From positions 1,271,040 to 1,310,641 of the forward strand of contig FP929036.1 of the NCBI GenBank assembly GCA_000209815.1: DNA of 39,602 nucleotides, in the 5' to 3' direction. Shown here piece after piece: positions 15,356 to 39,178 of this stretch. The notes below the pieces were generated by a model. It was not told the DNA's origin, ran no database searches, and worked only from the letters and a program-made list of their open reading frames with translations. Source of the DNA: Butyrivibrio fibrisolvens 16/4 (lineage in GTDB: Bacteria > Bacillota > Clostridia > Lachnospirales > Lachnospiraceae). The position numbers and the translations under genes were made by a program. Position 1 is the stretch's first letter. Every line of letters begins with the position of its first letter.

Positions 15356-15562
15356 ATGAAAATCAGTTATAAAAAATTATGGGTAAAATTAGCCGAAAAT
15401 GAAATGAGTAAGCAGGATTTTAGAGAAAAACTACAGATTGCTGCTGGTACGATGACAAAATTAAACAAGGGACAAGAAGTCTCTATGTCTGTGATTTTAA
15501 GAATTTGTGAATACTTTGATTGCAATATTGGAGATATTTGCGATGCTGTGAAGACAAAGTGA
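15356..15562 (+). CDS. small XRE/Cro-type HTH regulator
   Basis: 68 residues, all HTH: ISYKKLWVKLAENEMSKQDF, then AAGTMTKLNKGQEVSMSVIL and an ICEYFDCNIGDICD tail, the compact Cro/CI-like family often seen at the head of clostridial defence operons. Start at 15356 (AGAGG 7 bases upstream). It ends 15 bases before the PAPS-reductase-like gene, so it probably controls operon A. Confidence 0.85.
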   Translation: MKISYKKLWVKLAENEMSKQDFREKLQIAAGTMTKLNKGQEVSMSVILRICEYFDCNIGDICDAVKTK

Positions 15563-15577
15563 TAGATTGGTGGATAT

Positions 15578-17308
15578 ATGATAGAACGAGTTTGCCCGAA
15601 GTGCAGGGTGCCTATGGCTGGAGATAAATGTATAAAGCCTAATTGTGGTCATACTACAGAAATGTCATCTACTATTTATTGGTGCCATGATTGTAATGTG
15701 CCTATTTTTGAAAATGTGTGTCCGATATGCGGTCAAGATGGTCAATATATAGCAACAGATATTAGACCTGTATTCCCGGAAGAGAATTGTTTGATATCAA
15801 TTCTTCTTAAGGATGATCCATTTGCTTATCAAAAAGACTCTGTTTGGTTTGGAAGCAATTCATACATTATTAATGGCAAGAAGGTTAAGCTAGCTGTAAA
15901 CAAAATCAATAAGCTTCATATCGATGAGATAAAAAATATTAAGCAAAAGTATGATGATGTAGCTGAAAAAATCACATACGAGTTTTTTGATTTATATAAG
16001 GATAGATTTATTGAGGCTAATAAAGATAGATACAATTTTATAACCGAGGAAGCAGTTACATTTGTTCAGGGTTACAAGGAACGATATAAAATTGAAGATA
16101 TGATGGTGTCGTTTAGTGGAGGAAAAGATTCGACTGTTACATCACATATCGTTAATAGAGCGCTGGGAACAAATAAGGTCCTTCATGTTTTTGGAGACAC
16201 AACACTTGAGTTCCCTTATACATTGGAATATAAAAAGCGTTTCAACAAGAATGAAGAATCTAGTGGAGTAAGAATTCTTACTGCAAAGAATCGTGAAAAG
16301 AACTTTGAAGAATTATGTGAAGTTGTTGGACCACCTAGTCGTGTTATGAGATGGTGTTGTACCGTATTTAAAACGGGTGCGATACAAAAAACAATTGCGT
16401 CAGCCTTTAAAGATAAGAATAACATTTTGAGCTTTCAGGGAATTCGACATAATGAATCTGCTAGTAGAAGCAAGTATGAACGAGAAAGCGAGAGTCCTAA
16501 GATTTCAAAGCAGACGGTAGCTTCTCCAATTATAGATTGGATTGATTTCGATGTATGGCTCTATATTTTGACGACAGGAATTGATTTTAATGAAGCATAT
16601 CGACTTGGTTGGACAAGAGTTGGTTGTTGGTGCTGTCCAAATAATGGTGGCTGGTCTGAGTTTCTTTCAAAGGTTCATATGTATGACCAATATGTTCATT
16701 GGCATGATTTACTTGTAAATTTTGCTAAACAGATTGGAAAGCCAGATCCAGAAGATTATGTTGATGAGGGCGGATGGAAGGCTCGACAAGGTGGTAATGG
16801 TCTTGCCGCAGCACAGACATCAATCGTTTCATTTGAGCCATGCGCTACAGATGAGAATGCGTTTAATTATGACTTGCAACGTCCTATAACTGAAGAATTA
16901 TATGAGCTCTTTAAGCCTTTCGGCTTTATTAATAAAGAACTTGGAAATAAACGACTTGGAGAAGTATATATTCTTAACAAGGCAGGAAAGGTAGTACTTG
17001 TTCTTCAAGGAAGAATTGGAAGTACAAGGCTTAAAGTAATAATTAAAGACATTCATATTGCTAAGGCTAAGACATTAGCTGTAGCCGAAAGCAAGATACA
17101 ATGTCAGCTGACAAAGTATCAGATGTGTTTGGGCTGTAAAGCTTGTGAGAGTGTTTGTAAGTATGATGCTATTAGTGTTAAAGATGATGGCACAGGCAAG
17201 ATTACTTATACAATTGATAGTGATAAATGCAAGAGATGTACAGAATGTGTTGGTCACTTTAATGCAGGTTGTTACATGCGTAAAGTATTAGGAATTAAGA
17301 GGACATAA
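15578..17308 (+). CDS. DndC/SspC-like PAPS-reductase-family protein with zinc-ribbon head and ferredoxin tail
   Basis: 576 residues. Residues 1-60 hold several Cys pairs (CPKC, CHDC, CPICG), a zinc-ribbon head. The PP-loop ATP pyrophosphatase core begins at VSFSGGKDSTVTSH near residue 180, followed by HVFGDTTLEFPYT and MRWCCTVFKT, as in PAPS reductase and DNA-phosphorothioation DndC/SspC. A second Cys cluster (GCWCCPNNGGW) lies near residue 350. The last 70 residues look like a ferredoxin domain (CLGCKACESVC, then CKRCTEC), able to carry a 4Fe-4S cluster. DndC/SspC activate DNA with ATP for sulfur insertion; the same role here is inferred from fold and from the cysteine desulfurase in the operon. 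Confidence 0.85.
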   Translation: MIERVCPKCRVPMAGDKCIKPNCGHTTEMSSTIYWCHDCNVPIFENVCPICGQDGQYIATDIRPVFPEENCLISILLKDDPFAYQKDSVWFGSNSYIINGKKVKLAVNKINKLHIDEIKNIKQKYDDVAEKITYEFFDLYKDRFIEANKDRYNFITEEAVTFVQGYKERYKIEDMMVSFSGGKDSTVTSHIVNRALGTNKVLHVFGDTTLEFPYTLEYKKRFNKNEESSGVRILTAKNREKNFEELCEVVGPPSRVMRWCCTVFKTGAIQKTIASAFKDKNNILSFQGIRHNESASRSKYERESESPKISKQTVASPIIDWIDFDVWLYILTTGIDFNEAYRLGWTRVGCWCCPNNGGWSEFLSKVHMYDQYVHWHDLLVNFAKQIGKPDPEDYVDEGGWKARQGGNGLAAAQTSIVSFEPCATDENAFNYDLQRPITEELYELFKPFGFINKELGNKRLGEVYILNKAGKVVLVLQGRIGSTRLKVIIKDIHIAKAKTLAVAESKIQCQLTKYQMCLGCKACESVCKYDAISVKDDGTGKITYTIDSDKCKRCTECVGHFNAGCYMRKVLGIKRT

Positions 17309-17310
17309 AA

Positions 17311-18171
17311 ATGGCTAATGAAAATTCAATTAGATTACAGGGTCATGAAAAGTTCGCCCTTCGAGAAGGATGGCTTACTAAAGGACTGAATGAAGTTGAT
17401 AATCCTAAATATGACAATGTGTTTTTGGAAAAAGATGCAGCAGAGATCTTTGGAATTGGTAACAACATGGTTAAGTCACTTCGTTACTGGATGAGAGTAT
17501 TTGGGTTAACTAATGAAAGTGGAACAGAATTATCGCCATTTGGTAAGCTTGTGGCCAAGAAGGATAAATACATAGAGGATACTTTTTCTTTATGGATAAT
17601 GCATTCGAAAATAGCTAAGGATATTCATAATGCTACATCCTGGTATATGTATTTTAATCGCTGTGATGCTGACGATTTGGATAAATCACAGATTAACAGC
17701 ATTTTGTACAGAGAAATTTCTAAGTATGCTCCCGAAAAGAAGGTTTCAGAAAAATCTTTGGAGAGTGATGTTGATGTATTGCTTAATATGTATAGCAAGC
17801 GTAAAGAAAACGATGATCCAGAAGATAAGAGTATTTCCCCATTTAGCCAACTTGCGTTGGTTAAAAATGTGGGAGGAAAATATTCGAAAGTACATCCTTC
17901 GGCAAAGCATTTTAGTGAATTGATAGTGCTATATGAAATCGCATCTATGTTGTGCGGAGAGGATAGTTTGTCAATTGATGAATTGATAAATGGAGAAATG
18001 GGACTTCGCAGAATATATAATCTTTCAAGTGTTGTTGCAAATGATTATTTAGATAAATTAGATGCTGCTGGGTATATAAAGGTAGATAGAACCGCTGGAT
18101 TGGATGTGATTTATCCTCTGATGGAACTAGATGCTGATGTAATTTTGAAAGAATATTACGAAAACAAATAA
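17311..18171 (+). CDS. DUF4007 family protein
   Basis: 286 residues. The start HEKFALREGWLTKGL and FGIGNNMVKSLRYWMRVFGL near residue 48 are the DUF4007 signature. The family is known mainly as a partner of PAPS-reductase-like genes in defence islands and may bind DNA (its first third is winged-helix-like). It begins 2 bases after the previous stop, so the two are co-translated. Molecular role unproven. Confidence 0.85.
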   Translation: MANENSIRLQGHEKFALREGWLTKGLNEVDNPKYDNVFLEKDAAEIFGIGNNMVKSLRYWMRVFGLTNESGTELSPFGKLVAKKDKYIEDTFSLWIMHSKIAKDIHNATSWYMYFNRCDADDLDKSQINSILYREISKYAPEKKVSEKSLESDVDVLLNMYSKRKENDDPEDKSISPFSQLALVKNVGGKYSKVHPSAKHFSELIVLYEIASMLCGEDSLSIDELINGEMGLRRIYNLSSVVANDYLDKLDAAGYIKVDRTAGLDVIYPLMELDADVILKEYYENK

Positions 18172-18182
18172 AAGGTGATGGG

Positions 18183-21100
18183 ATGAAAAAAATACAATCT
18201 CTTAAAGATATCATAGAATTTAATAGCAGTTTTAAATCTGCTGTAAATCTATATTTAAGTTTAAATAAGCCTGAGAAGGTAAAGGGCTATATTCCAACAA
18301 AATCGTCTATAAGTGTTATAGGAGATTATTTGGAGAACATAATAAGCAATAAAGAGCAGGCGACTTTATTCGTTGGACCATATGGTAAGGGAAAGTCTCA
18401 TCTTTTATTAGTTTTAACTGCCATTATTTCGATGGATAGAACTCCTGAAAACAAGAAGATAATTGATGAGTTAGTAAAAAAGTAAGAAAAGTAGATGAAG
18501 TTGGTAATGAAGTTGCTGATTTAATAATGTCTATGTGGAGTAAAGATAAGTATTTACCTGTTCTTATCTCAGGCTCTACTGGTGATTTAAATCAGGCGTT
18601 TTTATTTGGGCTGAACGAAGCAATTAAAAGAGATAAGTCATTGGAAGGTTTGGCACCAGAGACTTATTATTCAATGGCAATCGAGCGTATCGAAGATTGG
18701 AAAAAGAATTATAAAGATACATTTGCTGTTTTTGAAAAGGAAGTAACTAAGTCGGGAATGACAATTAATGACTTGATTACTAATCTTAAGTTGTGTTCAA
18801 ATGATGCACTTGATACATTCAAAGCTATTTATCCTAAGGTGACAGCCGGTAGTGAGTTTAATCCTATGGCAGTTTCTGATGTTTTACCTTTGTTCAAGGG
18901 CATTAGTGAGAAATTAGTCGAAGATTATAACTACAGTGGTATCTATATTATTTTTGATGAGTTTAGTAAGTTCATTGAGAGTCAAGATGGATCGGCAGCT
19001 GGCTCAAATATGAAGTTAATACAGGATGTATGTGAGTTGGCAACAGAGTCAAAGAATGCGCCTTTATTCTTTACAATGGTGGCTCATAAGAGTATCAAAG
19101 AATATGGAAAGTATTTATCAATCGATATTATCAACTCATTTACTGGTATTGAGGGTCGTATTGTCGAAAAGTATTTTGTTACTTCATCAAAGAATAATTA
19201 TGAGTTAATTAAAAATGCAATCATAAAGAAAGATGATGATTTACAGAATATAGAGCATGTTCAAAAATTTGTGGACAGTGAAGCACTTGATAAGTATTAC
19301 CAGCTTCCTGCATTTAAAAGCAATTTTCCAAGAAAAGATTTTGAAAGCATAGTTTTAAATGGTTGCTATCCACTTAATCCAATTGCGTCATACTTGCTGC
19401 TTAATATTAGTGAGAAAGTGGCTCAAAATGAAAGAACGTTGTTTACATTCATTTCTAATGATGAGCCAAATAGTTTGCTTCGCTTTGTTGAGAACCATGA
19501 TGAAAGTGATGGATGGAGTGCTGGAGCAGACTTAATCTATGACTATTTTGCACCATTGTTTAAAAAGGATGTTACAAACGAGTTTATACATAATATTTGG
19601 CTTAGTGCTGAATATGTAATTGATAAATGTGAGTCGGATCTCCAGAAGAAAGTCGTAAAAGCACTTGCAATTATTCTTATAGCAAATAAAGAAGATGAAT
19701 TACCTGCGACTCGTACCTATATTCCGCTTTGCGTAGATGTTCCAGGCTGTGCCGAGATTATTGATGACCTAGCATCTAATGATTTCATTTATAGAAAGAA
19801 CGCAAATAATACTTACGCTTTTAAGACCAAGGCTGGTTCCGAATTGAAATCAGAGCTTAATAGGCAGCGTGAATTAAAAGGTGACAATGTTAATTATGCA
19901 AAAGCGTTATTAACAATTACCGGTAATTACTATATAGCGCCTCGAAAGTACAATGCACTTCATTGTATGACTAGATATTTTACAAATGAATATATGCTTG
20001 TAGAAGACTTTATGAATATTAATAGTGCAGATGCATTATTGAGTGACATGAAGGGTGATGGAAAGGTTATTACACTTTTTAGCTTTGAAGCAATTAAGCA
20101 GGAGCGAATCAAAAAGCATTTGGTTGAATTAGCTGATGATAGATTAATTGTTGTTTGTCCTAAGGAGAAAGTCAAGATACAAAAGCAATTAAAGGATTAT
20201 GAAATTGTCCAAGAGCTTAGGTCAAACCAGGTATTCACAAATAACAACGCTGTACTTAAGCGTGAATTACCATTGATGTTAGAAGATTTGACAGTAGAGA
20301 TTGAAAACGTACTACAAACTATATATGACGAAGAGTCAGGAACCAAGGTTTTCAGATATAGTTTAGCAGAAGGAAAACCAATTAAGGCAAGCTCTGCTGA
20401 GAAGGCAGTAAGTGACTGTTGTGAAGAAGTTTATTATGAAACACCAATTATTAATAATGAAATGGTTAATAGACAATTTATCACTACAGGTCAGACAAAA
20501 AAGGCGAGAATAAATATCATCGATACAATTCTCCAGCATAAATGTGATGAAGAATATGGTGAAGGATTTAATCAGGAAGCTACAATATATCGTTCATTAT
20601 TTGTGAAGAATGAGTTGCTAGCTGGAAACAATGCAAGACTTCAGAAAATCTTGGATAGAATGAATTCTTACATTGATACTTGTTGTGACAAAAAGGTTTC
20701 TTTTACTGATTTAATAAATGAGTTGATGGCTAAACCATACGGAATGAGATTAGGTGTAATTCCGATTTATTTTGCACATATTCTTGCGGAGAGACAGGAA
20801 GATATTATTGTTTATTTCGCAAATCAAGAGGTACAGATTAACGCAGAAATTATCGTTAATATGTGCGAGAACGCAGAAGATTATGCGGTATATGTCTCAA
20901 AAGAGGATATTGAGAAAGAGAAGTATTTAAACGAGCTAAATGCTAGGTTTAAGATTAGTGAGAACAGAAATCTTTCTTCAAATCGAATAAAAGATATTGT
21001 GATTTGTATGCAAAGATGGTTTAGAGCTCTTCCTCAAGCTACAAGAAATCTAGTAGATATAGAAAAATATGAAGAAAATGAGACTGTTGTTGCCCAGATG

Positions 21101-21766
21101 AAGGTGATTAGAAAGGCAATGCAAACAGTAGAGTTTAATCCTTTTGAGATGTTATTTGTGACATTTCCTAATGAGTTTGGAACGTCATCACTGCTGGAAA
21201 CGTTTGATATTATTGATAATCGTGTAGATGATTTTGAGGATTACTTCCATAAAATCGAGAATGAAATTGTTAATGATATCTTTAAAATCTGGGGCTCAAA
21301 GCGTGGAAAGGATAAACTTTATTTAGATTTACGCGAGTGGTATGAACAACAAAGCGTTTCAGCAAAGCAAGGTTTATATGACGGAAGAATAACTAATTTT
21401 ATGTCATGTATTGCTAGTCTTAATACACACAATAATGAGCAGGTTGCGCTGAAAGTAGTAAAAGCTGTTACTAATGTATATGTTGAAAACTGGAACAGTG
21501 GAGCTTTAGATGATTTTATAGAAGAATTAAGTGGACTAAAGATTGAGATTGAGTCAATAAAAGATGGTGATTCATCTGGCGAATACACACTTACATTCGT
21601 TGATAAGAATGGTGTAGAGAAAAATAAAAACTATTCTTATGCAAGCGAAGGCACAGGTAGTGTATTAAGAAATATTATAGAGGATACTCTTGATGAATAT
21701 GATGACCTGAGCGTGAATGATAGAGTATCTATTTTACTTGAAATGATAGACAAGATTACTAAATAG
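18183..21766 (+). CDS. large P-loop ATPase (BrxC/PglY-like architecture), frame broken once
   Basis: Restored length 1194 residues. The Walker A motif GPYGKGKSH is near residue 65 and a Walker B IIFDEFSKF near residue 252, both in the N-terminal AAA-like part; the rest is helical with no known motif. The frame stops at 18485 directly after the A run 18476-18481; one more A joins it to the long ORF with a smooth sequence (ELVKKVRKVDEVGNEV). Size and layout resemble the BrxC/PglY-type ATPases of BREX and related large defence ATPases, but I cannot claim orthology. The break also sits on an in-frame A-AAA-AAG slippery heptamer, so programmed frameshifting is a lesser alternative. Confidence 0.75.
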
Positions 21767-21778
21767 GAAGGCGATGTA

Positions 21779-24644
21779 ATGATTTATTTAGACAACGCAG
21801 CAACTACGTTCCCTAAACCAGAATCAGTATATGAAGCAATGGATAGGGCAAATAGAGAATACGCAGTAAATGCTGGAAGAGGTTCTTATAAGGCTGCGAG
21901 AGAAGCAAATCGTATAATCACTGAGACAAAACAGCAATTACGTAACTTAGTAAAGGCTGATATTTCTGCTGCTGTTGTCTTTGCTCCATCAATTACTATT
22001 GCTCTTAATCAGATAATTAATGGATTGAATATTCGAAATGGAGCGGTGGTTTATGTTTCTCCATACGAGCATAATGCTGTTGCTAGAACAGTACATAAAA
22101 TTGCGCAGGAAAGAAATCTATTGGTAAAAGAATTACCTATAAATGAGCAGGATTTTTCAATAGATTTGGAGAAGATGAAATACGAGTTTACAAAAGATAG
22201 ACCTGAATTTGTATTCTCTACTCATGTAAGTAATGTTACGGGATACATTTTGCCAGTTGAAGAAATCTTTTCAGAGGCAAAGAAATATGATGCTGTTACC
22301 GTGCTAGACTCTGCACAGTCACTTGGACTGATTGATATATCAGTATCGTCTTTAAAAGTAGATATTATTGCTTTTGCGGGCCATAAGACTTTATATGGCC
22401 CTTTAGGCATTGGTGGTTTTATTAATGTTACTGGCGTTTCTCTTAATACATTTATTACGGGTGGAACAGGTAGTGATTCATTAAACCTTGATATGCCTAC
22501 TGGTGCAGAATCACATTATGAAGCTGCTAGTTCGAATATTGTTGCGATAGTTGGTCTTAATGCAGCTCTTAAGGCTGTTGATATAGAAAAATCAAGGAAG
22601 CGAGAGCAAGAACTTACTGATATTTTGACTTTGGAATTAAGCAAAAATCCTAGAGTAAAGATGTTTATTCCAAATCGAGATAATCATACTGGGATTGTTT
22701 CTTTTATATTTGAAGGAATGAATTCCGAGGATATTGGACAGATTCTGGACGAAGATTTTGACATTGCAGTTAGAACTGGTTACCATTGTGCTCCATTCAT
22801 CCATAAATATCTAAGAGATGAGTCATCATTAGGAACTATAAGGGTTGGTATAGGAAGATATACTACAGAAGAAGAAATAAAAAACTTATTGCTGCATTGG
22901 GGGAGTTGGCTAATGAGTAATTATATTGATTATATGTATAAGATGAGTCAATCAGATTTGAGAGATTTCCTTGGTCAAAATATGGTTGATCTAATTGTTG
23001 AATGGTGGCCTGATGGAGATGCCATGCTAACTAAACAGCGAATGGTTAGTATAATCGATTCATTGTATGGAACTTCGATATTAAAAGAAAAGAATTTTAG
23101 ACGTAGTCTACTACTTTGCATGCAAGAATCAGATATATATCAGATTCGAGATAATTGCTTAAAGGGTGCTGAAAAGCAGGAAGAGGATCCATTGCATATA
23201 GTAGAATCAGTCGTGAATAAGCCTTGGAAAGATAATCATGTAAGTGTTTATCTGGCATACTTATGGGGGTTGACTGAGGCTATATTTGATAAAGAAAAGG
23301 ATGACGCAGTTATTGAAAATGATATAACTGCGCCAGAAGAGCAATTTTATGAGTTGTTAGATTATCAATACTATATTAAGCAAAGAGTTTTGGCAAATCT
23401 TAATTCAGGGCATCCTATGGAGAGAATGCTAGTCCATATGCCAACAGGAACTGGAAAAACCAAGACATCAATGCATACGATAACAAACTATATTAATTTT
23501 ACTCTGCAGAAGAAAGGTTTAGTAATATGGGTTGCTCATACTACGGAACTCCTTCAGCAAGCCTATGATACTTTTACAGAAGTATGGAATCATCTTGGAG
23601 ATGGCGAAATAAAGGCATATAAATTATGGGGAACAAGAACAATAGAAGATATTGATAATCAATTAGATGGCATTGTTTTTGTGGCTTGTCAAAGTTAATG
23701 TCTATATTTGAATCGTCGCCAGAATTGTTTGAGCGATTAAAAAGGACTGTCGTTTGATTGTGTTTGATGAGGCACATAAGGCAGCTGCTACCCAGACAAA
23801 GAAAGTAATTGAAGCCCTAATGAGAATGCCTAATGGCTACGAGAATAGGGCATTGATTGGATTAACTGCTACACCAGGACGTACAACAGAAGATTCATAT
23901 GATAATAATCTTTTAACAAATATGTTTGGAAACAAGCTAATTAATATTGATTCGTCGATATTGAATCAGATTAATCTTGGCCCATTACAGGCGTTGAATA
24001 CTGTAGCAGAAGAAAACATTATTAAATATTTTCAAGAAAGAAGAATACTGTCGAAAATGAAGCCTGAGAGGCTGACATATAAGGATTCATTCACAGATGA
24101 AGAATTAAAAGTATTAAGTAGTATGTTGGTGGATTTGGGTTACGATGATAAAGAGTATTCTAATGAACAGTTAAAGATTCTTGCTAGTAATAAGGAGCGT
24201 AACCTTGCAATTTTAAAACGAATAAAGGAGCTTCAGATTGCTAAAATTCCAACTATCGTGTTTGCATGTTCGGTAAATCATGCAAAAATGCTCTCAGCTA
24301 TGCTTACGCTGGAAGGTATTAAGAATAGTCTTGTTCTAGGCGAAATGGATCCGGTGGCAAGAAAGAAAGCAATAGATGAGTTCAAGGATAGAGAGTCTGG
24401 AGTGGATATCATTATAAACTATGAAGTATTAACTACTGGATTTGATTCTAAGAATATAAGGTGTGTATTTATTACGCGCCCTACCAAATCAATCGTTTTA
24501 TATAGTCAGATGTTGGGAAGAGGTTTGAGAGGACCTCAAATGGGTGGTAATGAAGAATGCCTATTAGTAGATATTGATGATAATCTTAAGGCTTTTGATA
24601 ATGAAACAGCCTTTTCACATTTTAACGATTATTGGAGAATTTAG
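21779..24644 (+). CDS. SufS-like cysteine desulfurase joined to a DEAH-box helicase; frame broken twice
   Basis: Residues 1-378 are a class V aminotransferase/cysteine desulfurase: YLDNAATTFPKP at the start, PLP lysine in FAGHKTLYG near residue 204, catalytic Cys in RTGYHCAPF near residue 338. The rest is an SF2 helicase: Walker A MPTGTGKTKTS, DEAH in IVFDEAHKAAA, LTATPGR, and QMLGRGLRG. Frame breaks at 23695-23696 (missing T) and 23739-23743 (missing A) lie between Walker A and DEAH; restoring both gives a continuous 955-residue frame. The fusion itself is doubtful. Removing one G from the run at 22899-22903 would end the desulfurase at 22913 (TAATG overlap, 377 residues) and start a 577-residue helicase at the ATG at 22913 behind a GGGAG ribosome site. 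Confidence 0.8.
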
Positions 24645-24653
24645 GAGGTCGTC

Positions 24654-26453: not shown

Positions 26454-26461
26454 GTGAAAAT

Positions 26462-28411: not shown

Positions 28412-29013
28412 ATGAATGAATTCGATTTTTTATCAACAATTGAAACTCCAGAAAAACGCAAGCAACGACTTGTGGAAAAGGATATTGCACAAATTGAAGA
28501 AGCACTAGAATCAGAAGATGAGTCTTTTGTTTTAGAAACCCATAGATTGATTGATGGTAAATACCAAGCATGCATTGACGGATGGTCAAATGGAATGTAT
28601 GTGTGGATTCAGGGACATGGTTTTTTCTATAATGATTTAGATATGGAAACCATGAAAGAGAACTTGGCAACGATGAAACCAAAATTATTGGCATATATTG
28701 AGGGTTGGAATGAAAGTAATATTGACTCTAGTGATAGGCAAGATATAAATGTTACAGTTAATAATAAAATAAATATAGAAATATCATTTAAAGAAGCACG
28801 TCAAAAATAGAGGATATGCCTGGCTTAAATCAAGCTGATACAGAAGAAATACAGAGTAAAATCGACGAACTGGAGAATATCTCACAAGAAGGAATTTCTA
28901 AAAAAAAGAAGTGGGAAAAGGTTAAACCAATCCTATTATTTGCGTTAGATAAAGGTGCTGATGTGGCCATTACAATTATGGGTTTAATACTACAAATGAG
29001 ATTAGGAATGTGA
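28412..29013 (+). CDS. small defence-island hypothetical protein, frame broken once
   Basis: The first frame (28412-28810) and the short ORF at 28816-29013 join into one 200-residue protein if one A is added to the run at 28803-28807 (join: KEARQKIEDMPGLNQ). The N-terminal part is acidic; the middle (VTVNNKINIEISF) and the Lys-rich helix before a hydrophobic end (LLFALDKGADVAITIM) recall small helical proteins often found beside phage-defence genes. GGGGGAA precedes the ATG. Last gene of operon A. Function unknown. Confidence 0.6.
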
Positions 29014-29190
29014 TATTTGAAAGAGGCTTATATCTCAGATGAAGACGAGAATGACTAAAGAAAACAGTCGATTAAACATTTAAACGAAAAGATTTCACAA
29101 TACAGACAAGCTAATTTCTGTGGCAGATGAAGAAAAATAAGGTATAATTAATAGGCTTATTTAGGTATATTTGATACAGATATGATTTGT
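29014..29190 (+). other. non-coding spacer between operons A and B
   Basis: AT-rich DNA with no supported ORF. A short acidic open frame just after 29017 (LKEAYISDEDEND) lacks a ribosome site. Nothing else is visible before the terminator. Confidence 0.5.
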
Positions 29191-29219
29191 AAAGAAGCAA
29201 CTTTTTTGGTTGCTTCTTT
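29191..29219 (+). terminator. intrinsic terminator of operon A
   Basis: AAAGAAGCAAC (29191-29201) pairs perfectly with GTTGCTTCTTT (29209-29219), an 11-bp stem with a T-rich loop, followed by GCTTTG. Confidence 0.75.
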
Positions 29220-29246
29220 GCTTTGTCATCCTTAGAGTTCAAATAT

Positions 29247-29274
29247 TTGACATACTAGGGGTATATTATATAAA
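29247..29274 (+). promoter_or_regulatory. sigma-A-type promoter of operon B
   Basis: Consensus TTGACA (29247-29252), 16-base spacer and TATAAA (29269-29274), about 35 bases before the first gene of operon B. The best promoter in the window, so this half may be expressed on its own. Confidence 0.75.
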
Positions 29275-29307
29275 AGGACATTTTTTAGTAATAGAAAGGG
29301 AATAATT

Positions 29308-30261
29308 ATGAGTACAAATAAGAAAGGTCATACTCACGATATAAGCAGAAGCAATAGTAAGAGTGATAGCGCAAAAGGTTCGAAGAATTCAAAAATCCAA
29401 AAAGAAATCATCTTCGAATTACAGAGGAAAACAAACACCTAAAGTAAATACAAAACCTGAAACAAAGGCTAAAGAGAAAGTAGCAACTGTAGAGAAAGAT
29501 ATGCCTGTAGCAAAAGAAACATCTAGAGTCGAAAAGAATATTACAGTTGTTAAGAGACCTGAGAATATTAATTTTGGGAAAATAGAAGAACCTAAAGTCG
29601 AAACAAAGACTATAGAGGAAAGTGCAAACAAGACTACACCCAAAGAGGTTTCAGAAAAAATCATTGATACTATGAAGCCAGTTACAAAAAATGAGTTACC
29701 AGAGACAAAAGAAGAAGTAGCTTCTACGCCAGAGATGGCTCCTGAAAAAGATACTACTGAGAGAATCACAGCGGTTATCAAGGAGGAATCTGAAAAACAA
29801 GATAACAGACCAAGTCGAATTGATCTAAAGAATAAGAGTGAAGGCTTCAAGCTGATTATAGATGCTGCATTAGCTTATGAAAAACTTGAATCTGAAAACA
29901 CAAAGCTTAGTTCGAAAAATAAAGAACTGATAGATGAAAAAAGAAACTGGTAGCTGAGACTAATAATTTAAAGTTTTTACTAGATGAAGGCAATAAAATT
30001 TGCGAGCAGAAGCAAGAAGAAATAACTAATCTTAAGGCTGAAATAGAACAAAGAAACGAAGTTATTGGTATTGTTAAAGCTGATAAAAGCGAATCCGAGC
30101 AAGAGTTTAAGAATGCTCTCGCAGCTTCGTTAAAAACATTTTATGTAGATTTCAATGAATTAAAAGCGATGCCAATGGATGGCGATGTAGGAGCCGCTAT
30201 TACTGAAACATTTGATAATTTCATCAAAGTTTTAGAGAAAAATGGCATTTCTATGAAGTAA
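29308..30261 (+). CDS. charged low-complexity/coiled-coil protein, frame broken twice
   Basis: Restored length 317 residues. ATG at 29308 after GAAAGGG. The first 30 residues are Ser/Lys-rich; one extra A within 29391-29403 shifts the frame. The middle is Lys/Glu/Thr-rich low complexity (e.g. KAKEKVATVEKDMPVAKE). A missing A at 29937-29942 breaks it again; restored, the C-terminal 100 residues form a coiled coil (NLKAEIEQRNEVIGIVKADK) and end in a compact acidic domain. Probably an adaptor or nucleotide-exchange-like partner of the Hsp70 that follows 20 bases later; the latter idea rests on position only. Confidence 0.55.
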
Positions 30262-30281
30262 TAATGTTCGGAGTATAGGTA

Positions 30282-31757
30282 ATGGATAGTAAGAGGTTTA
30301 AATGGATTGGCATTGACTTTGGTACAACAAACAGTGCGTCTATTTCATTTTTGAATGAAGGTAATCATATTGGAAGGTATGAACATGGTGATGATCAAGG
30401 TACACCATTCCCTTCTATAGTTGGTATAAACAAAGAGACAGGAGAAATAATAACTGGTAGAGAAGCTAAAAATCGAAGAATGGAGCTTTCGGAAAGCTAT
30501 GAGTTTTTCACATCTATAAAGACTATTATCGATCAAGATAAGACATTTAATGTTGCTGGAAAAAACTGGACACCAGTTGCTCTTGCTACAGAGATACTAA
30601 AAGGACTCAAGGCTGAAATAAAACGTAAAAACGTTACAGTTGAAAGCGCTGTCATGGCCGTTCCTGTTGGGTTTACACCTAAAAAGAAAATGCGCCTTAG
30701 AGAAGCAGCAAAGAATGCTGGTATTGAAATTGAAACTTTTATTAGTGAGCCAACAGCTGCTCTTGTTAGTAATTACGCAAAAATGCGAATGTTCAAAAAT
30801 GTTGCAGTTTTTGATTGGGGGGGCGGTACTTTGGATGTTGCAATTCTTCGTCTTGATGGAGGTAGAGTTGAAGAAATTGCTACTGATGGAATGAATCTTG
30901 CTGGTGACAATATTGATAGAAAAATAGCAGATCAAATGCATATCAAGTATTGTCGTAACAAAGGTGTTAATAAGACTTTTGATGAAGTAGATGGTAAATC
31001 TAAAGATAGACTCATAGTAAAGAGCGAAAATGCCAAGATAGAATTGAGTGAAGGCGCAGATATCGCAAGTGTTCTTGTACCAAACTACGATAATAATGGA
31101 GTTTTCAGAGAAACTATTGAATACGATTTATTTGAGCAATTAGTTGAGCCAGAAATAAATGAAGCGTTAAATTGCATAAAGAGGGCAATAGAAAAAGCAC
31201 ATCTTAATAAAGCTAATATTGATGCAATTCTTTGTGTTGGTGGTTCTAGTAGATTGAAACCATTTAGAGACAAGATTATTGAGATTTATGGTAATGAAAA
31301 GATTGTATATCCTGAAAAGGTTATGTGGAATATAGCTGAAGGTGCAGCTGCAATAAGTATGACAAATGCTGCTGGTGGTTATGGAATGAACCAAGATATA
31401 GGTTTGATTTTAAGTAATGGTACATTTTATCCATTATTAAGAAAAGGTCAGCGAATTCCTTGTAGAGAGAAGAAAATTAATTTTGCATCAGTCACAGATG
31501 AAAAATCGGTTCGTTTTTTAGTTACCGATAATGAAGATCCGCAAAAGAGAACTTTTGAACAACCTGTTGTACTTGATAGGGAAGGACAACATTTCATGAG
31601 TGAACAATTTGAGGTTTCATGTTTTGTGGATCCTGATTTATTACTTAGATTTAGAGTTCGAAGTACAGAATTTATGAAAAAGTATCTGTATACATGGACT
31701 TACAGTAAATTGAATATATTCTATCAAATTGAAGGTGAGGCTTATGCAAGAGAGTAA
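30282..31757 (+). CDS. Hsp70-family (DnaK-like) ATPase with short C-terminal domain
   Basis: 491 residues. Actin-fold ATPase motifs: WIGIDFGTTNSAS near residue 8, FDWGGGTLDVAIL near residue 178 and CVGGSSRLKPF near residue 318. The ATPase domain (about 1-370) is complete; the remaining 120 residues are shorter than DnaK's substrate-binding domain and lid, so it is a divergent Hsp70 rather than the housekeeping chaperone. No DnaJ or GrpE gene is nearby. Its last codons overlap the start of the UvrD-like gene by 14 bases. In the system it may remodel the helicase/ATPase complexes, which is inference. Confidence 0.85.
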   Translation: MDSKRFKWIGIDFGTTNSASISFLNEGNHIGRYEHGDDQGTPFPSIVGINKETGEIITGREAKNRRMELSESYEFFTSIKTIIDQDKTFNVAGKNWTPVALATEILKGLKAEIKRKNVTVESAVMAVPVGFTPKKKMRLREAAKNAGIEIETFISEPTAALVSNYAKMRMFKNVAVFDWGGGTLDVAILRLDGGRVEEIATDGMNLAGDNIDRKIADQMHIKYCRNKGVNKTFDEVDGKSKDRLIVKSENAKIELSEGADIASVLVPNYDNNGVFRETIEYDLFEQLVEPEINEALNCIKRAIEKAHLNKANIDAILCVGGSSRLKPFRDKIIEIYGNEKIVYPEKVMWNIAEGAAAISMTNAAGGYGMNQDIGLILSNGTFYPLLRKGQRIPCREKKINFASVTDEKSVRFLVTDNEDPQKRTFEQPVVLDREGQHFMSEQFEVSCFVDPDLLLRFRVRSTEFMKKYLYTWTYSKLNIFYQIEGEAYARE

Positions 31758-34217
31758 TATTTATTTTGCAACCAACACTTTTAATTATGGCGGTGAAATT
31801 AGAGGTGAATCTAAGAATCGATTTAAAGAAGACAAGGCTGATGCAGAATTCTTTCATCAGGTTCTAGATTATGATGCACTAATAAGATTAAAAAAGATCC
31901 ACGTATGTATAATGGGTTAAATTCAAACTATTATTGTGGAACTTATGAGCAGAGAACTATATTGGATCCAAACTTTTCATCTGTAATGATTACAAATAGA
32001 CAAAGGGATCCTGAAATAGAGGCAGAAAATGCGCGTTATGATGCTGAATACGGTTATCCAGAAGACAATGATTATTATCCGTTGTTAGAAGAAATCGTAA
32101 TTGATAATACGTCTATTTCTTATGCGGATGAAATGTTAGGTAAGTGGGAGAAATCTAACCATGGATTTGACGATGCATCTGCAAACATATATGGGCTTTT
32201 TATAAAGCAAAAGACTGAAACTGATACGGGGAATAATACTGTAGCACCAGAAGATGCAGGCTTTGAAGAAATAGAAGATAAAGATCCTTATTACTATAGA
32301 TATAGGGATTCGGCTACTAAGGAAAAAAGTTCTGCTTTTAAATTAGATAAGACAAAGTTATATAAGGAAAAATATGGCAGTATATTTAGAGCATTTGCTG
32401 ACACAACACAGGAGGAAATAATAGAAGCTCCTCTTAATCAGATGTCGTTTGTAAATGCAGGCCCTGGAACTGGAAAAACATATACACTGATGAGAAAAAT
32501 TACACATATGGTTGAGAACCTTGAGGCAGACCCTGAAGGTATATTGGTGTTATGTTTTACGAACGCAGCTGTTAATGAGATTAAGGCACGTATAAAGAAA
32601 TTTTCTGAAGAAGAGGGTGATAGATCCTTCTTGAATATTGATGTTCGTACCTTCCATTCATTTTCATGGTTACTAATTAATCAAGCTAATGAAGTTTTCA
32701 TTGATAGAGATAATTATCGTTACATAGACTATACAAGTTTAGATTATGATCAGAGTATTGCTAAGGCTTCTGAGATTATATATAAGTTTGGCGAAGAAGT
32801 CTTTGGTAACTGTACGCATATTATTGTAGATGAAATTCAGGATTTAACAGATGTAAGAGCTCGAATGGTTCTTCATATTGTTGATGAATGTAAAAAGGCA
32901 GGTATTGGAATAACTGTATTAGGAGATTCATGCCAAGCTATATATGATTACTCTGAGGAAGAAATTTTATTTGAACTGAAATCTGATAGATTTTATGACT
33001 ACATGTTTGAGCGTTTCTATGATTCCGGAAAGTTTTATCGTTTAGACAAAAATCATCGTCAGTCACAGGATTTAATAAGGATTTGTGCACCTCTTAGAGA
33101 GACAATTTTGTCTGGTAAAAAAGAGGATGTGCATACAACTATCGCAGTAATTTCTAAGGTTGTACCAGCCATTACACAAGGATTGGCAACTATAAAACTT
33201 AGCAATCAAGAATTTAATATGCTGAAGCAAGACGGAACGGTATGTTTAATGTGCCGAAATAATGCGCAAGTATTAGCGACATCTTCTAACTTGCATAAAC
33301 GAGGAATAAAGCATGTTGTAAATGCATATGATGAATTTGAACAATTAGCAGATTGGATTGGTAAAGTTTGGGGATTATATCCTAAAGAAATAATATCATT
33401 TGATGAGTTTGAGGAATTAGTAAGGGATAAAGAGCTAGATATTGATGCTTATGAAATCTGGTCTCGCTTACAAGACTTAATAGGTAGTCAAAACAATGTA
33501 TTAAAAATTCCTGAGGTTTTAATGGCAATAGCTAAATCTAAGGTAGATGATCCTTTATTTAGAAATGTTCCAAAAGGAAATCTTATTGTATCCAATATTC
33601 ACAAGGCCAAAGGTCGTGAATATGATACTGTTGTTTTGGAAAAGAAATTTGTTAATCGAATGATCAACGAATCAAAGACATTTATTAGTCCTACTGCATA
33701 TTTAGAAGAAGCCAAAATGCTTTACGTTGCAATGACAAGACCACGAACTAAATTATATTTTAATGATTTAGCAGCAATGAATGTTTCTTTACACAAGATT
33801 CGATCAGGAAATAAGCGATGGGCTAGGGGCGATGGCTCTAACTTAGTTACAATTGAGGTAAGAGCACAATCGGATGTAAATCCAGAGACATATGATAATG
33901 AGTATATTCAAGAATATATTTGTAATAATGTTTCTATCGGTGATGAGATAAGGGTATTACTGGATAATACGGGCGACTACCTTACCTATAATATTTTTCA
34001 TGTAAGTGAAGCAGGTGAGAAGCTTATTGGAGAAATGAACGTGGATTTCATTGATGATATAGATTATATAATTACTCCATACGATTCACCTTGGCCTAGA
34101 AGAATTACAGACTTATATGTATCTGGAATACATTCAAAAATATCTCCTGATTTCAAGCACACTTGGTGTTGGGTGGATTTTTGCGGTTTAGGCAAAGCGT
34201 CAAATGATGTATATTAA
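31744..34217 (+). CDS. UvrD/PcrA-like SF1 helicase, frame broken once
   Basis: Restored length 824 residues. ATG at 31744 within the end of the Hsp70 gene. The six-A run at 31890-31895 lacks one A; restored, the sequence runs on (ALIRLKKDPRMYNGLNSNYY). Residues 1-235 are unfamiliar. Helicase motifs follow: NAGPGTGKTYT (Walker A, near 240), CFTNAAVNEIKAR (Ia), IIVDEIQDLTD (II), GDSCQAIYDY (III), NHRQS (IV), SNIHKAKGREYDTVVL (V) and LYVAMTRPRTKLYF (VI). The core is compact, without a RecB-like nuclease motif. It likely unwinds or translocates on DNA alongside DrmA. Confidence 0.85.
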
Positions 34218-34228
34218 GGAGTTTTTTC

Positions 34229-37200
34229 ATGAATTACGAGAAGTATTATGAAGCTAGAGATATAGTAAAGGAAATAATTGAAAAAGATTTGCTTGGATCA
34301 CTTGATGATGAGGAGATAATTAATGATTATCCTATTTCATATTATATTTTGGGGAAATTGTACCCTCAGCAATGTATAACCGAGACTGAAATATCTAATG
34401 CGGAAGATGCTGGAGAACTAGATGATGAGCCAGCAGTTGCAGCTGATACAGGACGTTTTCCTTCTTCTATTGGTATATCATTTTCTTTATCTAAGAAGGC
34501 CGAGGTTTTTAAGTTTGTAATAAAGGCTGCAAAGTACCATTTGCTTGAGGAGACTGATTCGGATACTAAAAAACCTTTATGGAAACGTGAAATTATATTT
34601 TTTAATTCTGATAATATTTTTGTTTCAGATTTGGTGGCTAAGAGACGTTTGAAAGTGACTATCAGTGAAGGACTTGTTGCGGATATCTTTTTGCACAAGA
34701 CATACAAAGATGGTAGTAGAACTGTATCTGTTACATTAATTAATACAAATGTACAATCCAAGACTTTCTCCAGAATGGATATTAATCTTAATACATTTTT
34801 TCAGCCTTATATAAAGGTGGTTGGTAAAGAGGATGCATTTACTGATGTTAGAAAAATGTAAAGCTAAATATAAGTAAAGAAACTGTGGAAATGGAAATGC
34901 TATATTCAAAATATAAAGAGTTTTCTACAGGCCATGGTTGTGCTACGAGTTATCATAGAGAGTCGGGAAATGTTGTGCTTGAAACATCAATGTTACCTTG
35001 CTACGAACTAAAACAAATGATGCCAGCTGAACAAGACGACAGATTACTTTCAATGAAATATTTAGCTTCAGTATCAAAAGATGATTTGATACCTCAACTA
35101 TTAAAATGGATTTCTGGATATGAGGATTGGATTAATCAGTTAAGTATTCTGGCTGAAAACATAGAAAAGGAATATAAGGAAGTAGCTAAAGATAATATTT
35201 CAAAGTGTACAGCGACTTATGAGACGATAGTAAAATCTATAAAATGTCTTAATGATGAAAATGTATATAAAGCTTTTAAATATGCTAATGAAGCTATGTT
35301 CTTGCAGCGAAAACAGGTACTCAACAATCGAGGAATAAAATGTGATGATAATAAGATAAATTGGTATCCGTTTCAGCTTGCATTTTTCCTTCAGGAGATA
35401 GTTTCATTCGCAAAGCCAGAATCTGTTGAACGAAAAAAGTTGATTTATTATGGTTCCCAACAGGTGGTGGTAAGACAGAGGCTTATTTAGGCATTGCAGC
35501 ATTTGATATTTTCTTACGTCGTTTGAGAAATCCAAGAACAGGCTCAGGTGTATCTGTAATAATGAGATATACATTGAGATTATTAACTTTTCAGCAGTTT
35601 GAAAGAGCATCTGCAATGATTTGTGCTTGCGAAGTACTCAGAAGGAAATACAATATTCCGGGTTCTGAAATATCGATTGGCCTTTGGGCTGGAAGGGCAC
35701 TTACGCCTAATGAGATTGAAAAAGCTGCAAAAATATTAGAAGGATACCCAGATCCAGATAATGAAAGTAGTAATCCAAGGCAGCTAAAAAAATGTCCTTG
35801 GTGTGGAACTACATTGGAAGATAGTAGTTACTCTTGTAATAATATTGAGAAAAGAATGTATATAAAATGTCCTGGTCAAAACTGTGATTTCAGAAATGGC
35901 TTGCCAGTACATTTAATTGATGAAGAGATTTATAAATTCAAACCTACTTTTTGGTGGCAACAGTTGACAAGTTTGCTCAGGTTGCTCATCGCGAGGAGAC
36001 TTTCTCTTTATTTGGAAAGAATACGGGCAATATGCCTCCTGAATTGATAATTCAAGATGAATTACATTTAATATCTGGACCACTTGGTACTATTACAGGA
36101 ATATATGAGGCAGCATTTAAGAAAATGTACTCAAATGATGGTATAAATGCAAAAATTATAGCATCTACAGCCACAATTAAGAATGCGTCAGAACAGATAA
36201 AGGCTCTATATGAGACTGGGTTTACTCAGTTTCCACCACAAGGCTTAGACTCAGATGATTCATATTTTGCTGTTAAATCTACGAGAGATAAAAACCAGCA
36301 AGACTATATATGGGTTGTATGGGAGCAGGTACTAGTGCCACTACTATAATGATTAGGGTGATGGCCGCAACGCTCTATGCAACTAGATATTTAGAGACAT
36401 TAAAGTATGATGACGATATTATTGATGCTTTTTGGTCTATAACAAGTTATTTTAATACATTAAGAGAGCTGGGCGGAGCAATACTTAGAGTTATTGATAA
36501 TGTTCAGGATCGTTTTTCATATCTAAAGGAATCAAAACTAAAGGACTATTATCCGATAAATGGTGGACAGACTAGATATGATAATTATATTGAGCTTACA
36601 AGCCGTGAGAAAAGTGAGAATATAGGAAAAATTATCCAAGAGGATTTAATGGTTAAATATTCGACAGATAAAACCAAGATGCCAGTAGATTTTATTCTTT
36701 CATCTAACATGATTTCTGTCGGTATTGATATTTCACGTTTGAATACAATGTTAGTAATGGGACAGCCTCATACAACAGCGGAATATATTCAAGCTACTAG
36801 TAGAGTGGGGCGTGAAACCCCTGGATTTGTATTTACAATGTATAACTATATGCGTTCTCGTGATAAATCTCATTTTGAACAGTTCACTCAGTACCATGAA
36901 GCATTTTATAAGTATGTAGAAGCCACAAGTGTTACTCCATTTGCTGAACGAGCTCGTGACAGAGCTTTGCAAACATTATTTATAATGCTTTGTCGTTTTT
37001 ATATTGATGAATTGCGTGCTAATGAGTCTGCAGGGCGGTTTAATCGTAATATTAGTGGATTAGAAGAAATTCGAGAATATATTCTTGAATATGTTAGTAA
37101 TGTAGATCCTGATGAATACGAAAATGTTGAAGAAGAGCTGGAAGAAATAGAAATTGAATGGGAAAGTTTGGCAATGGAAAACTCTGATATGACTTATAGG

Positions 37201-37323
37201 AAGTCTCCATTCCAAACAAAACCTGCACTATTTTGCGAAGATTATAATGAAAACAGTCGTTTTAGAGTATTAAATTCTATGAGAAGTGTTGAAACGGCAG
37301 TTCAGGTAATAACGAGGGATTAA
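34229..37323 (+). CDS. drmA: DrmA-like DISARM helicase, frame broken four times
   Basis: Restored length 1032 residues. The frame changes at 34852-34856 (A run), 35433-35438 (A run), 35948-35952 (T run) and near 36312-36314 (G run), each fixed by one added base, and all parts keep DrmA-like sequence. N-terminal domain: NYEKYYEARDIVKEII, PSSIGISFSLS. Helicase lobe 1: FPTGGGKTEAYLG near residue 410, a zinc knuckle (CPWCGT, then CPGQNC) near 525-552, DELHLISGPLGT near 610 and STATIKNA near 647. Lobe 2: SNMISVGIDISRL near 826 and QATSRVGRETPGF near 854. DrmA and DrmB together form the DNA-binding core of DISARM. The helicase is probably intact in the organism despite the breaks. Confidence 0.85.
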
Positions 37324-37324
37324 T

Positions 37325-39178
37325 ATGGCATTTAGAATAAAAACAGCAGGTAAAGATTCTGAAAAAGTATCTTATGGGAAAATAGCTGGAGAAATCCGTA
37401 AGTCTCAATGTATAACAACATATGGTCCAGGCGCATTAGTTGATTTCCCTAGAGCTAGTACAATTATCGATGGTATAGACAATTGGGAATCATCCCTTGG
37501 AAAGTATAATTTCAACAAGATGAAGATTCATGAACGTAATCTTGAAAGTATTCTTGGAAAGGACTTTTTTATTCAACCACAGATGATAGATAACGATAAA
37601 AAGGTTCATGGAATAAATGCAACTAGATTTCCAGAGTATTGTTATTGCCCAGAATGTGGAGTATTGGATCGTTATCGTAAAATTGAGAAAAAAACAGCTA
37701 ACATTAAAGATTATAATCACGAATCCTATTGTGCCGCTTGTTATCAATCGAAGAATAGAAATGTAAAACTTATACCATCGAGATTTGTTGTTTCGTGTGA
37801 AAAGGGACATCTCGATGATTTCCCATACGATTGGTGGGTACATCGAAGAACAGGAGCTTGTGGTAATTCCAAATTAACTATTGAGATTTCCAAGCACACA
37901 AATAGTTTGGAAGGAATTGTAATCAAATGTGCCTGTGGGGCAAAAGAAAATCTTGATGGTATTATGGACAAAGGAGCTTTATATCAACGAAGATGTTTTG
38001 GAGCAATGCCTTGGTTGGGTAAGTCAGAAGATAAAAAGGGATGGTATTCTGATTTACCTGAGAAAGAACCATGTGAATCTCAAGTTGTTGTGCTTCAACG
38101 TGGCGCAAACAATGTTTATTACTCTAATGTTATATCAGCTTTGACGATTCCACCTTACAGCTCTAGGATTCAGCGATATCTAATAGATTATATAAACAAT
38201 CTTGAGGACTATTATTCAAAATCTGATAGTTTAAAAGAAGCAAATTTAAGAGATTTTTTTGAACAACATTGCAAGGTTTTGCGATGTGATTATGACAGTT
38301 TTAAACGACAAGTAGATATTGCGCTTAACATTGATAATAAATCATTTCAGAATCCACGAGAACTAGTTATTGGCGAATATGAAGCGTTGTGCGACGACGA
38401 TTGCAAAGATCCGGATTTTTTAACAATAGAAGCACCTGTTCCCAATGATCTCAAATCTTTTATAGATCAAATAAAGATTGTTGGAAGATTACGAGAAGTG
38501 CAGGTTTTGAATGGCTTTTCTCGTGTTTATTCTTCGATAAATATAGCGCCAATCTCTAGAAGACCGCTAAAATGGCTTCCAGCAAATGAGCTGTACGGTG
38601 AGGGGATTTTTATTCGATTATCTGAAAACAAGATTTCTGAATGGGAACAAAAAATTGGCTCAAGATATAATGAGCTCCTAAATAGAGGAAAGAATCATCC
38701 TGCAGTAAAGTTTAGACTGTCAGGTGGAAGTGCTCGATATGTCTTACTGCATACATTGTCTCATCTTCTAATAAGAGAATTAACTTTACAATGCGGCTAT
38801 TCGGCTTCTTCAATAAAAGAAAAAATATATTGTTCTTCTGAGAATGAAAGTAATATGTGTGGCATCCTCATCTACACTGCGTCAGCCGATTCAGATGGCA
38901 GCCTTGGTGGTTTGGCTCGCCAGGGAGTTCCAGAAAAGCTACTGGATGTATTTTTAAATATGTTGGAAAGTGCTAGCTGGTGCTCAAATGATCCAATATG
39001 TATTGACTCGTTAGGTCAAGGTTATTCATCTCTTAATTATGCAGCTTGCCATGCTTGCACTTTGTTACCGGAGACTAGTTGTGAATGTGGAAACATTTTT
39101 TTAGACAGAGCTGCAATAGTAGGCACATCGGATAATCCCCAAATAGGATATTTTGCAGAGTTACTTCAGACAGATTAA
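37325..39178 (+). CDS. drmB: DrmB-like DUF1998 protein
   Basis: 617 residues. YGPGALVDFPRAST near residue 36 is the DrmB opening signature. Several zinc-site Cys pairs follow (CYCPECG near 104, CAAC, CEKGHLDDFPYDWW near 157, CACGAKE). The DUF1998 C-terminal part has HTLSHLLIREL near 477, SADSDGSLGGLARQG near 520 and the CHACTLLPETSCE cluster near 582. DrmB pairs with the DrmA helicase and is required in DISARM. It starts one base after the drmA stop. Frame intact throughout. A terminator 24 bases downstream ends the operon. Confidence 0.9.
   Translation: MAFRIKTAGKDSEKVSYGKIAGEIRKSQCITTYGPGALVDFPRASTIIDGIDNWESSLGKYNFNKMKIHERNLESILGKDFFIQPQMIDNDKKVHGINATRFPEYCYCPECGVLDRYRKIEKKTANIKDYNHESYCAACYQSKNRNVKLIPSRFVVSCEKGHLDDFPYDWWVHRRTGACGNSKLTIEISKHTNSLEGIVIKCACGAKENLDGIMDKGALYQRRCFGAMPWLGKSEDKKGWYSDLPEKEPCESQVVVLQRGANNVYYSNVISALTIPPYSSRIQRYLIDYINNLEDYYSKSDSLKEANLRDFFEQHCKVLRCDYDSFKRQVDIALNIDNKSFQNPRELVIGEYEALCDDDCKDPDFLTIEAPVPNDLKSFIDQIKIVGRLREVQVLNGFSRVYSSINIAPISRRPLKWLPANELYGEGIFIRLSENKISEWEQKIGSRYNELLNRGKNHPAVKFRLSGGSARYVLLHTLSHLLIRELTLQCGYSASSIKEKIYCSSENESNMCGILIYTASADSDGSLGGLARQGVPEKLLDVFLNMLESASWCSNDPICIDSLGQGYSSLNYAACHACTLLPETSCECGNIFLDRAAIVGTSDNPQIGYFAELLQTD

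Follow-up and report, generated by a model that had tools for sequence, protein, structure and literature searches.

A probable Ssp sulfur-modification operon with a helicase-MORC-PLD cassette beside a DISARM-like operon in Butyrivibrio fibrisolvens 16/4

The window, a stretch of 39,602 nucleotides from Butyrivibrio fibrisolvens 16/4 (GenBank assembly GCA_000209815.1, contig FP929036.1, positions 1,271,040 to 1,310,641 of the forward strand) that is one part of a 3.16 Mb one-contig genome, holds two neighbouring defence operons, which are most likely separate units. Operon 1, sspD-sspB-sspC-sspA-helicase-MORC-PLD, has seven genes at 15.35-27.36 kb and would be a phosphorothioation-based restriction-modification system, in which sulfur placed in the DNA would distinguish self from non-self and the helicase, the MORC-type ATPase and the PLD-family nuclease would form the restriction side. 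Operon 2, which carries Hsp70, UvrD, DrmA and DrmB genes, would be a DISARM-like helicase system. This explanation, in which we place good confidence, rests on the identity of the genes, on catalytic motifs that are conserved, on a fixed gene order and on recurrence with sspBCD genes, and the limits of the two transcription units are predicted from the sequence.

A sequence-only reading of the same DNA had described a single composite island, with a sulfur mark as the self signal, the helicase, ATPase and PLD genes as the restriction side, and the DISARM-like genes joined to them. All genes that it named are present on the plus strand at the places it gave them, as judged from the open reading frames (ORFs) of the window and from Pfam and PADLOC scans (Table 1). 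Its proposal for the sulfur mark and the restriction side is supported by the data below, while the joining to the DISARM-like operon is not.

Predicted sulfur-modification module of operon 1

By gene content the SspABCD set is complete, with SspB, SspC, SspD and SspA in one cluster and SspC in two frames. The sequence-only reading had seen no SspB, which was wrong, as the DUF4007 protein matches both the PADLOC model and the solved structures of SspB; the large P-loop ATPase that it had left unassigned is present and is SspC. Its statement that SspE and PglZ are missing agrees with searches of the whole genome, which return 0 matches for PglZ (2 of 14 control genomes positive) and 0 for an SspE-type GmrSD_N/DUF262 gene (8 of 14 control genomes positive). 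DndB, DndD and DndE, also given as missing, are absent from the PADLOC lists of the scanned window proteins, the sole check made on them, and SspF, SspG and SspH do not occur among the PADLOC matches listed for window proteins (one list holds the best 25 of 47), the presence of such models in the library being unchecked.

The best PADLOC model for SspD is BrxP, the kind with a ferredoxin-like C-terminus, and passages of PMC12839542 describe PAPS reductases of this type both for BREX type 4 and for some of the SspD proteins. Single-strand phosphorothioate marks are given as the product of Ssp genes in parts of the published work. In the proposed mechanism, SspA would take the sulfur from cysteine and SspD, which carries a ferredoxin-like domain, would transfer it, and SspB together with the SspC ATPase would choose the site and place the sulfur into the DNA backbone.

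Helicase, MORC and PLD proteins

The GHKL motif residues E29, N33, D65, G69, G93, G96 and G98 of the MORC protein are invariant in an alignment of 36 sequences. Compared with solved structures, the MORC profile finds MORC2, MORC3 and MORC4 in 9 of 10 matches, ranked first, the tenth being PMS1. The predicted fold has a mean predicted local distance difference test (pLDDT) score of 81.7 and a predicted template-modelling (pTM) score of 0.67, and in Foldseek it matches GHKL proteins generally (Hsp90, SMCHD1, MORC, MutL and GyrB) at low TM-scores of about 0.3-0.4 by query length, so that the MORC label comes from sequence and not from fold. Judged by its GHKL motifs and nearest kinship, the protein would belong to the MORC family. 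MORC ATPases are known from gene silencing in eukaryotes, and the presence of one in a likely sulfur-gated DNA defence could allow its clamp action to be studied in a simple host.

In the PLD protein, residues H88, K90, D95, S103 and N105 are invariant among 20 close sequences, and the HKD pattern is present in 59 of 68 wider matches; a single HKD motif suggests that the protein works as a dimer. During restriction the helicase would translocate on DNA, the MORC GHKL ATPase would act with it as a DNA clamp gated by ATP, and DNA without the sulfur mark would be cut by the PLD nuclease.

Recurrence of operon 1

Species genomes were scanned with the MORC protein as seed, which gave 312 relatives, and the counts that follow refer to the best 80 loci, which were kept. 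The hidden Markov models behind these counts derive from the sequences of the window itself, SspC being modelled without its N-terminal part, and distant homologues may escape them. The helicase is found in 78 of the 80 MORC loci, PLD in 61, SspC in 68, SspB in 63, SspA in 58 and SspD, with a second SspD model added, in 65. At least two of SspB, SspC and SspD are present in 67/80 loci, and in 45/48 where at least 9 kb is visible on both sides of MORC. This recurrence beside sspBCD supports the helicase, ATPase and PLD set as the restriction side of a sulfur mark.

The order SspD-B-C-A-HEL-MORC-PLD (HEL being the helicase) is kept in the 28 closest loci, in one of which (L060) SspA is not detected and SspC is short. 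In this group sspA directly precedes the helicase, except in L073, where about 2.2 kb lies between them. By their record names, the 28 loci include Clostridia, Treponema, a Coriobacteriaceae, a Paludibacteraceae and an Anaeroplasmataceae metagenome-assembled genome. Plasmids also carry the set: among 47 plasmid records with a MORC match, ten neighbourhoods were examined, and seven of them (Treponema, Pannonibacter, Roseobacter, Planktothrix, Hymenobacter, Trichormus and Mesorhizobium) have PAPS reductase and/or DUF4007 plus an SspC-type protein with helicase, MORC and PLD. A sparsely annotated Cyanobacterium plasmid has PAPS reductase, a helicase-like gene and cysteine desulfurase near its MORC match. 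The seven-gene operon is widespread and apparently unnamed.

Apparent exchange of restriction parts

The helicase and MORC genes appear to be swapped as a block. The DNA of a Lachnospira multipara locus (L075) is 84.7% identical to the window over 15224-22879, which covers sspDBCA, and 86.3% over 26460-27345, which covers PLD, while the helicase and MORC genes between these blocks align in patches only, at 64-69% DNA identity. Protein identities to the window follow the same division, with 93, 91, 90 and 80% for SspD, SspB, SspC and SspA and 92% for PLD, against 55% for the C-terminal part of the helicase and 40% for MORC, suggesting a recombinational exchange in this locus.

The per-gene identities to the window were compared by Spearman correlation over 27 loci, which uses one reference and is not a tree test. 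Helicase and MORC identities go together (rho 0.96), as do those of the Ssp genes among themselves (rho 0.82-0.91), while the helicase or MORC compared with the Ssp genes gives rho 0.31-0.52 and PLD is intermediate, with rho 0.52-0.65 to all. In one genome of the same order (G021, L008:6511-19998), BrxP-type sspDBCA genes are followed by PbeA and PbeC in the place of the cassette, a replacement that also speaks for a restriction role of the genes in this position. In our reading of these patterns, a single modification module is combined with restriction modules that can replace one another, and the apparent exchange of helicase and MORC is a clue to which part reads the sulfur mark. The same G021 locus is of interest in itself, as Pbe restriction genes, which are described with Dnd, are here coupled to an Ssp module.

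Comparison with known systems

The modification module of SspA, SspB, SspC and SspD is common to the window and to the SspABCD-SspE and SspABCD-SspFGH systems, as set out in passages of PMC8092258. The proposed restriction side of the window differs from both, consisting of helicase, MORC and PLD, and SspE-type restriction was rejected, with no GmrSD_N/DUF262 match in the genome. BREX type 4, given as brxP-C-pglZ-brxL in parts of PMC12839542, shares with the window a BrxP-type PAPS reductase with a ferredoxin-like domain, DUF4007, BrxC/SspC kin and cysteine desulfurase, according to the same passages; it differs in PglZ, whose absence from the window's genome led to the rejection of this identity, and SspD and SspB are encoded separately in the window. 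In PbeABCD, described together with Dnd in passages of PMC6459918 and PMC10853773, PLD and helicase likewise form the restriction partner of sulfur marking, while in the window the two are separate proteins and a MORC ATPase is added. Identity with PbeABCD was not accepted: the helicase pieces give weak PbeA matches, and there is no PbeC among the PADLOC matches listed for window proteins.

Prokaryotic MORC restriction-modification operons resemble the window in having MORC beside a superfamily 2 (SF2) helicase, and some of them also contain an HKD/PLD domain, according to passages of PMC2292703; the partners named in those passages are methylases, and sulfur modification is not mentioned there. 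DISARM and YprA-family systems (passages of PMC12458937) share with operon 2 DrmA, which lies in five frames here, and a separate DrmB. Operon 2 differs by the addition of Hsp70, a coiled-coil protein and UvrD and by the lack of a methylase (DrmMI/DrmMII) in the operon; the main text of this YprA-family preprint does not mention Hsp70. The PLD protein of the window, which matches DrmC models weakly (4.2e-8), belongs to operon 1.

A search of the open-access literature, with subscription papers outside it, found no description of helicase-MORC-PLD as an Ssp partner, nor of Hsp70-UvrD-DrmAB. On balance we lean towards seeing helicase-MORC-PLD as a further, unnamed restriction module for phosphorothioate-marked genomes of several phyla, in which a MORC ATP-gated clamp would be tied to a helicase and a PLD nuclease, and in which the helicase-MORC pair would be exchangeable while the Ssp proteins and the nuclease stay. 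If this holds, the choice of site would lie in SspB and SspC, the swapped helicase-MORC pair would meet phage counter-defence, and the module would help to explain why so many sspBCD loci have no known restriction partner. In passages of PMC8092258, 2,211 of 2,678 sspBCD loci have neither SspE nor SspFGH, and helicase-MORC-PLD beside sspBCD is a concrete candidate for part of this gap.

Operon 2 and its boundary

The sequence-only reading had reported tight spacing throughout the island. The spacing is not uniform, as a terminator-like hairpin and a promoter-like site lie between the two blocks. The support for the terminator comes from its long stem and not from its count, because shuffled sequences give 0.9 such hairpins against 1 found. 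The coiled-coil protein and Hsp70 would probably be a sensing or regulating front end of the DISARM-like helicase system. No methylase is found among the window proteins scanned, and the genome has a single C5 methylase match, at a distance of about 210 kb.

The Hsp70-UvrD-DrmA arrangement is present in five other genomes (G281, G249, G744, G698 and G983) and is followed by DrmB in four of them, the contig of G698 ending first. No ssp genes occur in the stretches visible around these relatives, which before Hsp70 amount to at least about 7 kb in G744, G698 and G983 and to almost nothing in G281 and G249, where the contig begins at or just before Hsp70. Upstream in G744 and G698 there are genes for three more proteins, namely a DrmMII-type cytosine methylase, one protein of about 1,030 residues and a coiled-coil-like one of about 450 residues. 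Neither of the two genes that precede Hsp70 in G983 encodes a methylase, and this genome has no DUF4007 match. A search of plasmids with Hsp70 gave mostly DnaK among the best 25 of 139 records, the best match having a different neighbourhood, and no MORC was found in eight operon-2 or ssp genomes searched, without a positive control.

Relatives of DrmB are found in 7 genomes, the window's own included, among 391 of the class, and relatives of the UvrD protein in 4, own included, among 398 of the phylum. Seven further DrmB places in the class survey have no ssp, Hsp70 or close UvrD neighbour. A core of the operon-2 type is accompanied in relatives either by a DrmMII-type methylase or by ZorABC. 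The latter case is L029:1107-12321 (G292), where ZorA-ZorB-ZorC-like genes, the ZorC match being weak (2.8e-4), stand directly before the UvrD-DrmA-DrmB core, and where a Zorya front end would be joined to a core of the DISARM-like kind. In G744 a NERD-UvrD protein (PADLOC RTasNERD-Hel) directly follows DrmB (L164:793-2547).

Alternative explanations

The window could also hold one composite system, in which the sulfur mark of operon 1 protects as well against the DrmAB machinery of operon 2, whose own methylase was lost. In favour of it, the two operons are adjacent and on the same strand, no methylase is found among the window proteins scanned, and DUF4007 is present in 2/5 of the other Hsp70-UvrD-DrmA genomes. 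Yet Hsp70, DrmA and DrmB occur in 0/80 MORC loci, and UvrD in one (L081), beside a methylase-restriction protein and not beside Hsp70 or DrmA. At least 5.5 kb is visible beyond MORC in 57/80 loci, which at the window's spacing reaches Hsp70 but not DrmB; DrmB lies 10.9 kb beyond MORC in the window, outside most 10-kb flanks, and the test rests on Hsp70, UvrD and DrmA. Operon 2 in turn recurs without ssp genes in the stretches visible around it, the ssp genes of G744 are fragments or a remnant on another contig, among genes that look metabolic by eye, and a terminator- and promoter-like boundary precedes operon 2. Since G983 has neither a methylase before Hsp70 nor DUF4007, a missing methylase alone does not call for sulfur. 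Independent occurrence of the two operons in most relatives, which the sequence-only reading had itself named as a finding that would count against the joining, is largely what is observed. A composite system is therefore very unlikely, but its probability was raised slightly, and that of two separate units lowered to the same small extent, because the side where ssp genes would lie is barely visible in G281 and G249.

The helicase-MORC-PLD genes could instead be an independent restriction system that accompanies the Ssp genes without reading the sulfur mark. The identities of helicase and MORC, largely decoupled from those of the Ssp genes, the swapped look of the pair in L075 and the 2/10 plasmid MORC neighbourhoods without ssp genes are in its favour, but the joint presence is tight across several phyla (67/80; 45/48 with full flanks) and sspA stands directly before the helicase in the close group, apart from L073, which makes this alternative unlikely. 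The island could also be decayed, with SspC, the helicase and DrmA as pseudogenes and neither operon working in this strain. Compared with intact relatives, seven frame breaks are seen, one in SspC, two in the helicase and four in DrmA, and in this assembly the SspA frame continues into that of the helicase; the intact counterparts are one gene of 1200 residues for SspC and one of about 580 for the helicase in L056 and L059, and one of about 1025-1041 for DrmA in L029, L164 and L165. All seven breaks, however, shift the frame in the same sense, and every break interval (21 to 86 bases, set from alignment ends) contains a homopolymer of at least 5, the region holding 158 such runs in 24.4 kb. 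ORFs are short elsewhere in this genome too, ten other 20-kb stretches having 251 ORFs with a mean of 254 residues against 199 ORFs with a mean of 318 in ten stretches of a same-genus genome, whose content was not matched to them, and SspD, SspB, MORC, PLD, DUF3644, Hsp70, UvrD and DrmB keep long open frames. The breaks are most likely assembly errors, and decay of the island is quite improbable.

Several observations weigh against two separate units with an active sulfur-based operon 1. The frame breaks may leave parts dead in this strain. The SGGKDS motif is absent from 9/58 small-type SspD matches and the HKD pattern is missing from 9/68 PLD matches. Two detectable ssp genes are lacking in 13/80 loci; in 10 of these, one or both flanks are shorter than 9 kb, and in 3 (L085, L104 and L132) they are not. 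In plasmids of Agrobacterium and Leisingera the stretch around MORC has no sspBCD genes, which means that the tie of the cassette or its relatives to Ssp is not strict. In the order survey of 295 genomes, DUF4007 occurs in 4, a DrmB relative in 7 and both in 2, the window's genome and G249; in the latter the two lie on two short contigs that both end inside or at the relevant genes, so that they could be adjacent there. Among 15 carriers of DrmB or UvrD relatives, DUF4007 is found in 2 (G249 and G744), both belonging to the five Hsp70-UvrD-DrmA genomes. Because DUF4007 is present in 2/5 of these genomes against 4/295 in the order survey, a link of the two systems at the level of the genome is possible, the genomes being few.

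Features and accessory genes of the window

Table 1. Position and supporting evidence of the features of the two operons (window coordinates)
Feature	Position	Strand	Evidence
Terminator-like hairpin upstream of operon 1	15078..15105	+	10 pairs, 6 G-C, T tail; 1 found vs 0.2 expected in shuffles
Small helix-turn-helix-like regulator ORF	15350..15562	+	ORF, judged by eye only
SspD, PAPS-reductase-type sulfurtransferase with C-terminal ferredoxin-like 4Fe-4S domain	15578..17308	+	PF01507 1.5e-31, Fer4_7 1.4e-6; PADLOC BrxP 5.7e-82, SspD 2.2e-13; SGGKDS motif
SspB (DUF4007)	17311..18171	+	PF13182 3.9e-78; PADLOC SspB 1.9e-52; solved SspB 6juf/6lb9 E 1.3e-15
SspC ATPase, two frames (18183-18485, 18527-21766)	18183..21766	+	PADLOC SspC 1.2e-10 and 5.9e-89; Walker A
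SspA cysteine desulfurase	21779..22891	+	PF00266 8.7e-75; PADLOC SspA 1.1e-42; separate gene in L056/L059
SF2 DEAH-type helicase, three frames	22913..24644	+	ResIII 6.1e-13, Helicase_C 3.6e-12
MORC-type GHKL ATPase	24654..26453	+	HATPase_c_3 1.3e-19
PLD-family nuclease (predicted), one HKD motif	26462..27358	+	PLDc_2 3.8e-11
DUF3644 protein (PDC-S19), accessory	27378..28388	+	PF12358 8.6e-37; PDC-S19 7.8e-126
Two short ORFs between DUF3644 and terminator-like hairpin	28412..29013	+	No Pfam or PADLOC match
Intrinsic-terminator-like hairpin between operons	29189..29221	+	14-pair stem; 1 found vs 0.9 expected in shuffles
Sigma70-like promoter TTGACA-16-TATAAA before operon 2	29247..29274	+	By eye; outside scored sites, whose rule asks T at sixth position of second hexamer
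Coiled-coil protein, broken frames	29308..30255	+	ORFs; C-terminal 52 residues match L165 protein before Hsp70 (40%, E 1.2e-7)
Hsp70-like ATPase	30282..31757	+	PF00012 1.7e-39
UvrD-family helicase	31905..34217	+	PF00580 4.6e-28; GajB models
DrmA (YprA-family helicase), five frames	34229..37323	+	PADLOC DrmA
DrmB (MZB/DUF1998-type)	37325..39178	+	PADLOC DrmB 1.2e-85; PF09369 6.7e-8

The DUF3644 gene that follows PLD was considered as a core part and dropped, being present in 1/80 related loci; it is a variable accessory gene at a position whose content changes between loci. The genes that follow PLD are very diverse: 61 ORFs were collected there in 27 of the 28 close loci, among which GmrSD_N is found 5 times, DndB 3 times and DUF3644 once. 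Around the DUF3644 plasmid matches examined (3/6) there are no ssp neighbours, a search of solved structures with DUF3644 gave a single chance-level match, and a search for repeats downstream gave nothing. The two short ORFs at 28412-29013 may be one broken accessory gene. In a Treponema locus (L064:12675-13391) a DUF3644 gene also directly follows PLD, and its best PDC-S19 model differs from that of the window. At 657-2168 of the window, an AbiEii-type nucleotidyltransferase toxin adjoins a DUF6088 protein, and the pair is likely a type IV toxin-antitoxin system.

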